A stretch of 34,646 bases of DNA from Rhodoferax sp. (GTDB taxonomy: Bacteria > Pseudomonadota > Gammaproteobacteria > Burkholderiales > Burkholderiaceae_C): contig JAIPCE010000016.1 in NCBI GenBank assembly GCA_021738345.1, positions 1 to 34,646 on the forward strand. Direction: 5' to 3'. The notes beneath the pieces are model-generated. The model was not told where the DNA came from. It made no database searches and worked only from the letters and a program-made list of their open reading frames with translations. The translations under genes and the position numbers were made by a program. This document shows, in pieces, positions 1,456 to 1,651 of this stretch. How positions within the stretch are numbered: position 1 is the stretch's first letter; each line of letters begins with the position of its first letter.

Positions 1456-1624
1456 TTTTACACCCCACAAACTTTATTCAGCCCAACACCAGGTTGGGAA
1501 CGTTTAATGATGACTGGTTCCGGTCGCAACAACTTTTCGGTCAGAAAAACCTTGACTCCAGTCAATTGCCTGCGGTTTTTACGGTCGACAGTCGCCCTTT
1601 ACGGCGGATTTCACCCTAACTTAG

Positions 1625-1651
1625 TCATCGGCACGTTCTTTGAAAACTTAA
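1625..1651 (-). promoter_or_regulatory. Sigma-28 (FliA) promoter upstream of the octapeptide-repeat gene: TTAAGTTT-N11-GCCGATGA
   Basis: Reverse complement of tcatcggc-acgttctttga-aaacttaa. 7/8 matches to TAAAGTTT and 7/8 to GCCGATAA with 11-nt spacing. Confidence 0.75.

Follow-up and report, generated by a model that had tools for sequence, protein, structure and literature searches.

The ALTTAQ octapeptide-repeat gene at the edge of this Rhodoferax contig is very likely under sigma-28 control, judging from a promoter-like box that recurs with the same exact spacing ahead of homologous genes across the Burkholderiales. The window, by which we mean the whole stretch of 34,646 nucleotides analysed here, carries the beginning of this gene close to a set of late flagellar genes. 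An earlier note on this DNA had placed the gene in the sigma-28 regulon, an assignment that now appears strongly supported by comparative evidence. Taken as a whole, we consider it probable that a functional sigma-28 promoter drives the synthesis of a giant surface protein that is exported by a type I system and glycosylated by a GT41-type enzyme. This model draws on what the sequences themselves display, namely the box and its conservation, the restriction of the box to lineages with FliA, the repeat family, its predicted fold, the neighbouring genes, and the co-occurrence with a particular exporter.

A predicted sigma-28 promoter ahead of the ALTTAQ gene

The box lies at positions 1651-1625 on the minus strand and reads TTAAGTTT-TCAAAGAACGT-GCCGATGA. 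Compared with TAAAGTTT-N11-GCCGATAA, the E. coli sigma-28 consensus from the literature (PMC2859248), it matches at 14 of 16 positions, with two mismatches and a spacer of exactly 11 nucleotides. The -35 octamer TTAAGTTT (1644-1651, minus strand) agrees with TAAAGTTT at 7/8 positions, as does the -10 octamer GCCGATGA (1625-1632, minus strand) with GCCGATAA, confirming the earlier claim that a sigma-28-type box is present around 160 bp upstream of the start codon. The ATG is at 1455, with a Shine-Dalgarno-like GGGGTG just ahead of it, and the -10 element ends 169 nt upstream. A transcription start inferred from the box would give an untranslated leader of about 160 nt (1456-1619, minus strand), and the span of 1456-1651 originally highlighted corresponds correctly to this leader together with the promoter. 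Neither a sigma-70-type promoter nor a terminator-like site was found in the region 1300-2100.

We also considered a special RNA leader, and rejected this on the basis of a fold that is close to expectation (z = -0.19) and the absence of any Rfam match to the leader. As the distance between box and ATG is also variable in relatives (44-315 nt, median around 121), the sequence looks like an ordinary untranslated leader, and its length of around 160 nt is unremarkable.

The window contains four sites with three or fewer mismatches to the consensus, compared with a mean of 0.10 in dinucleotide shuffles. When the threshold is tightened to two mismatches, the 4.87-Mb draft genome (90.8% complete, in 346 pieces) contains three sites only, all of them on the window contig (1625, 10916, and 24865). 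The second of these is a 14/16 box at 10916-10942 on the minus strand, 135 nt before the flagellin gene fliC1 (9209-10780, minus strand), and the third, also 14/16, lies at 24865-24891 on the minus strand, ahead of flgM (24496-24840). A further box at 6046-6072 (minus strand) ahead of fliS reaches 13/16. Genome-wide, sites with up to three mismatches are not enriched (16, as opposed to 38 for a reversed-pattern control), and the fliS box, with its three mismatches, is therefore weak by itself. The fliC1 gene is divergent from a second flagellin gene at 11214-12803 (plus strand); the box at 10916-10942 faces fliC1, and upstream of the plus-strand gene no strong sigma-28 box was found.

FliA and FlgM are both encoded on the window contig, with fliA, the gene for the sigma-28 factor itself, at 23030-23749 on the plus strand (TIGR02479, E 1.0e-81, above the cut-off). 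The only other ALTTAQ gene in this genome is an unlinked paralogue on contig C124 (complete, with its ATG at 6367), which is preceded at a distance of 109 nt by the box TTTAGTTT-N11-GCCGATGA. The upstream DNA of the two genes is poorly alignable except for the box together with the bases directly beside it, GCCGATGACTA, and the spacers differ too. A stricter pattern, TNAAGT-N14-CCGAWA, matched the fliC and flgM sites only, missing the ALTTAQ boxes of this genome because these end in GATGA.

Conservation of the predicted promoter across the Burkholderiales

ALTTAQ gene starts were gathered blind to their promoters, from PF20080 hits in the family and from the conserved N-terminus in the genome collection, yielding 83 usable Burkholderiales upstream regions that fall into 51 sequence clusters. 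These were scored against the E. coli consensus, an independent yardstick. It was chosen because a promoter matrix derived from the upstream regions of relatives' flagellin genes had been abandoned, flagellin genes being tandem and most of the retrieved copies having no strong box of their own.

At a spacer of 11, a score of at least 12/16 was reached by 27/51 cluster representatives and by 0.8% of dinucleotide shuffles. The same score was attained by only 0-4 of the 51 clusters with any other spacer, by 2/51 on the antisense strand, and by 16 of 4271 random windows taken from the same loci. Among the upstream regions of 395 neighbouring genes, four records reached this level, and these proved to be one methyl-accepting chemotaxis protein (MCP) gene counted twice in overlapping loci, fliD, and fliS, the last two identified from their N-termini. 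With matches confined to genes of this kind, the score singles out late flagellar genes. A consensus-free search for 4-gap-4 dyads placed CAAG-N15-CCGA / AAGT-N14-CCGA at the top, in 21/51 regions, with a shuffle maximum of 10. The motif favoured in the relatives is TCAAGTTT-N11-GCCGA(A/T)A(A/T), and this Burkholderiales form differs from that of E. coli.

The sigma-28 rule is strong, but not universal, as 13/51 betaproteobacterial clusters (around a quarter) score 10/16 or below and some Duganella ALTTAQ genes belong to a divergent subtype with no sigma-28 box. One representative of this boxless subtype (L222:2058-8888, plus strand) keeps the common C-terminal module. Where ALTTAQ genes occur in tandem, the second copies have no sigma-28 box of their own, and the first structural gene alone has one.

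A giant repeat protein with a predicted helical fold

The window contains the first 484 codons of the ALTTAQ gene (1-1455, minus strand), which is cut at position 1 by the end of the contig. The translated product matches PF20080 (ALTTAQ) with E 1.9e-139 and 453.5 bits, compared with a curated gathering threshold of 26.4. Its octapeptide takes the form TTDQIAAL and is organized into higher-order repeats of 408 nt, equivalent to 17 octapeptides, which may be responsible for the break in the assembly. The detached C-terminus was not found elsewhere in the assembly, and the N-terminus of the product is atypical. The ALTTAQ proteins of relatives are 2,700-4,500 aa in length.

An AlphaFold2 model of residues 1-240 built with ten homologues (pLDDT 94.4) predicts a superhelix with one short helix of 5-6 residues for each octapeptide. 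The octapeptide repeats match those of HeliScrew4 (PDB 9zem, E 5.3e-18), a molecule of 120 residues whose name in the PDB is that of a designed-type molecule, and for which our literature search found no descriptive paper. Among natural proteins, the fold search ranked mesothelin first, with a weak match. Likenesses to mesothelin, importin-alpha, beta-catenin, and a phage receptor-binding protein were either weak or typical of helical repeats in general, and were not used. PF20080 is present in 49/141 sampled genera of the family, and a literature search found no paper on its function or regulation.

Candidate exporter and glycosyltransferase, and the C-terminus

In several genera, ALTTAQ genes lie near a cassette of GT41-family glycosyltransferase, ABC, HlyD, and OEP genes (G007, G056, G119, G228, and G258), which is often surrounded by sugar-biosynthesis and glycosyltransferase genes and by MCPs; a sugar-aminotransferase gene is among those found near the ALTTAQ genes of relatives. 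The GT41/TPR glycosyltransferase and ABC exporter of G056 read as a single fusion of 1403 aa (L066:15066-19277, minus strand), where other loci have two adjacent genes, and an MCP gene within the same cassette (L066:12064-13620, minus strand) has its own 12/16 sigma-28 box. MCP genes are found near ALTTAQ genes in further loci as well. None of the exporter genes examined has a sigma-28 box, and nor do the glycosylation genes. As the exporter cassette carries no such box, export capacity is not co-timed with the structural gene.

An orthologue of the ABC gene, scoring 831 bits or more (the next class reaching at most 621 bits), is present in 72/399 genomes, 70 of which are ALTTAQ-positive (p = 1e-49, a value that is inflated by shared ancestry). 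Put another way, it occurs in 70/103 ALTTAQ-positive genomes and in 2/296 negative ones. No dedicated orthologue was found in the 90.8% complete assembly of the window's own genome, where the best match has 34% identity and 316 bits, and the OEP-type gene is the only exporter-type neighbour of the window gene. The T1SS-like ABC gene that ranks best in this genome (C111) was considered as the ALTTAQ exporter and rejected, as it adjoins an Ig-like-domain gene that is probably its own substrate. The locus in question (L246:1-6878, minus strand) comprises a full set of OEP, ABC, and HlyD genes followed by a truncated Ig-like giant protein, and is probably a separate adhesin system.

At their C-termini, full-length relatives share a conserved, EF-hand-like module in which DxDGxG-type motifs occur, and 16/17 of them close with an acidic [D/E]..PLI tail; the C-terminus of the window gene lies beyond the end of the contig. 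RTX nonapeptide repeats (GGxGxDxUx) were present in 0/23 C-termini, and by this measure the proteins are not RTX adhesins. Based on these genomic associations, type I export is likely for the ALTTAQ family. For the product of the window gene we put it at about an even chance, and of all the steps in our account, export is the least well supported for this particular gene.

Type I-secreted giant adhesins such as SiiE (PMC6272769), the LapA-type proteins, and RTX adhesins are among the closest parallels, sharing with the ALTTAQ proteins of relatives a very long repetitive chain, ABC-HlyD-OEP genes nearby, and a conserved C-terminal module whose motifs resemble those that bind calcium. However, the Ig-like beta domain of the known adhesins contrasts with the 8-residue alpha-helical unit of ALTTAQ, and the GGxGxD motif of the RTX proteins is absent from ALTTAQ C-termini. 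To our knowledge, sigma-28 timing has not been described for SiiE-like, LapA-type, or RTX adhesins.

Probable timing with the flagellum

A natural negative control is provided by the alphaproteobacteria. A related N-terminus is encoded by the ALTTAQ genes found in Rhizobium, Sinorhizobium, Shinella, and others, and one Rhizobium gene is also flanked by a GT41 gene. In seven of these alphaproteobacterial genomes no FliA scores above the curated threshold, in contrast to the betaproteobacterial genomes tested, all nine of which have one. Alphaproteobacterial upstream regions with a readable start score 8-11/16, so that in these comparisons the putative promoter is missing where FliA is missing. 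Within the family sample, flagellin is encoded in 100/103 ALTTAQ-positive and 217/296 ALTTAQ-negative genomes (Fisher p = 7e-9, again inflated by shared ancestry). Production of this large surface protein by swimming cells is therefore probably coordinated with that of their flagella.

It is possible, although in our view somewhat unlikely, that the box is real and its connection with motility indirect, with sigma-28 serving as a growth-phase switch. The protein would then be a general component of the surface, of an S-layer-like structure, or of the biofilm, contributing neither to swimming nor to surface contact. Timing of the structural gene alone, with exporter and glycosylation genes that have no sigma-28 box, would be in keeping with such an arrangement, as would the retention of the protein by alphaproteobacteria that have no FliA and the proximity of glycosyltransferase and sugar-aminotransferase genes. 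Conversely, ALTTAQ genomes are nearly always flagellated, and the box has persisted through the divergence of at least 51 upstream regions, which speaks for a connection with the motile state.

The genetic context of the window gene invites a different reading. The genes fliC1-fliD-fliS-fliT, an OEP gene, a Sel1 gene, and the ALTTAQ gene follow one another on one strand, and late export substrates are typically under sigma-28 control. Moreover, the N-terminus, which is Ser/Thr-rich, contains no cysteine and begins MASxI, is superficially like the MASTINTNI of flagellin. A product that leaves the cell through the flagellar type III export gate and joins or coats the filament would fit with all three of these features. 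However, the flagellar location is not conserved, as in most relatives the ALTTAQ gene lies outside flagellar clusters, in the midst of unrelated genes for metabolism or glycosylation. In three further genomes of this genus, the flagellar gene order is the same but the OEP-Sel1-ALTTAQ block is missing, with both the Sel1-repeat protein gene that forms the upstream neighbour (1903-3816, minus strand) and the OEP/TolC-like outer-membrane efflux protein gene (3794-5191, minus strand) absent downstream of fliT. The block therefore looks like an accessory insertion, and with its flagellar neighbourhood being an accessory arrangement, it is the promoter that provides the regulatory link. Furthermore, ALTTAQ genes are repeatedly accompanied by genes for type I secretion and GT41, with the ABC orthologue distributed as described above, and the conserved C-terminal module and tail would suit a C-terminal signal. 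We consider type III export of the product unlikely.

The proposal in the earlier note that the gene makes a late flagellar product, for instance an adhesin associated with the filament or a sheath, consequently finds no support, given a gene that is mostly located away from flagellar clusters and in the company of type I cassettes and GT41 genes. A filament component or sheath is, we think, quite unlikely. The evidence assembled from gene neighbourhoods, C-termini, and exporter co-occurrence points instead to a separately exported surface protein that would merely be timed with the flagellum, for which a surface-contact or adhesive role is possible. With respect to the flagellar genes themselves, the window's FliD (6103-9066, minus strand) is 987 aa long, with a long Ala-rich, apparently coiled-coil insertion splitting FliD_N from FliD_C, and tblastn searches of same-genus relatives returned shorter genes that match only its two ends.

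Finally, a chance match at 1625-1651, with transcription reaching the gene by read-through from the flagellar genes ahead of it or starting at a promoter that escaped recognition, is highly improbable, since for all that the genes from fliC1 to Sel1 share one strand with no terminator-like site in 1300-2100, and that genomic sites with up to three mismatches are no commoner than in the reversed control, the unlinked paralogue is preceded by a like box, most homologous genes carry one with exact spacing and strand specificity, and the box disappears together with FliA.

Proposed mechanism and significance

In our preferred model of a sigma-28-timed, type I-exported glycoprotein, hook completion would allow FlgM to leave the cell, freeing FliA-RNA polymerase to act on class-3 genes. 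The ALTTAQ gene would then be transcribed by this polymerase along with flagellin and the other class-3 genes. Its product would fold as an extended alpha-superhelix of 8-residue units, each contributing one short helix, and would probably be exported by a type I (ABC-HlyD-OEP) system that recognises the C-terminus. Glycosylation of the Thr/Ser-rich repeats by a GT41-type glycosyltransferase would provide the motile cell with a giant glycoprotein, either surface-bound or extracellular, which could take the form of an adhesin, coat, or fibre. Within this scheme we infer FliA-dependent transcription, the route of export, glycosylation, and function, the last of which might conceivably lie in first contact, in a coat, or in adhesion.

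The class-3 sigma-28 promoters of E. coli and Salmonella (PMC2859248) share the TAAAGTTT-N11-GCCGATAA architecture and exact spacer with the promoter predicted here, and have FliA and FlgM present. They differ in their targets, which are flagellin, capping, motor, and chemotaxis genes, as opposed to the giant repeat protein described in this study.

Our analysis places PF20080, a large and uncharacterised family of giant proteins, in a defined regulon, and names ABC-HlyD-OEP and GT41 proteins as partners for testing; its contributions on this family are the connection to sigma-28, the exporter, and the connection to GT41. More tentatively, and at something below even probability, we suggest that the FlgM/FliA checkpoint gates a second, non-flagellar surface structure across the Burkholderiales. 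This would be a giant GT41-glycosylated octapeptide superhelix served by a dedicated type I system. Its synthesis would await completion of the flagellum, and the swimming cell would need the structure for what follows, for example first surface contact or protection. Well-known giant adhesins are tied to biofilm signals. If our model is true, the logic here would be the opposite, with the sigma-28 checkpoint timing a separate giant surface glycoprotein in addition to the filament and chemotaxis.
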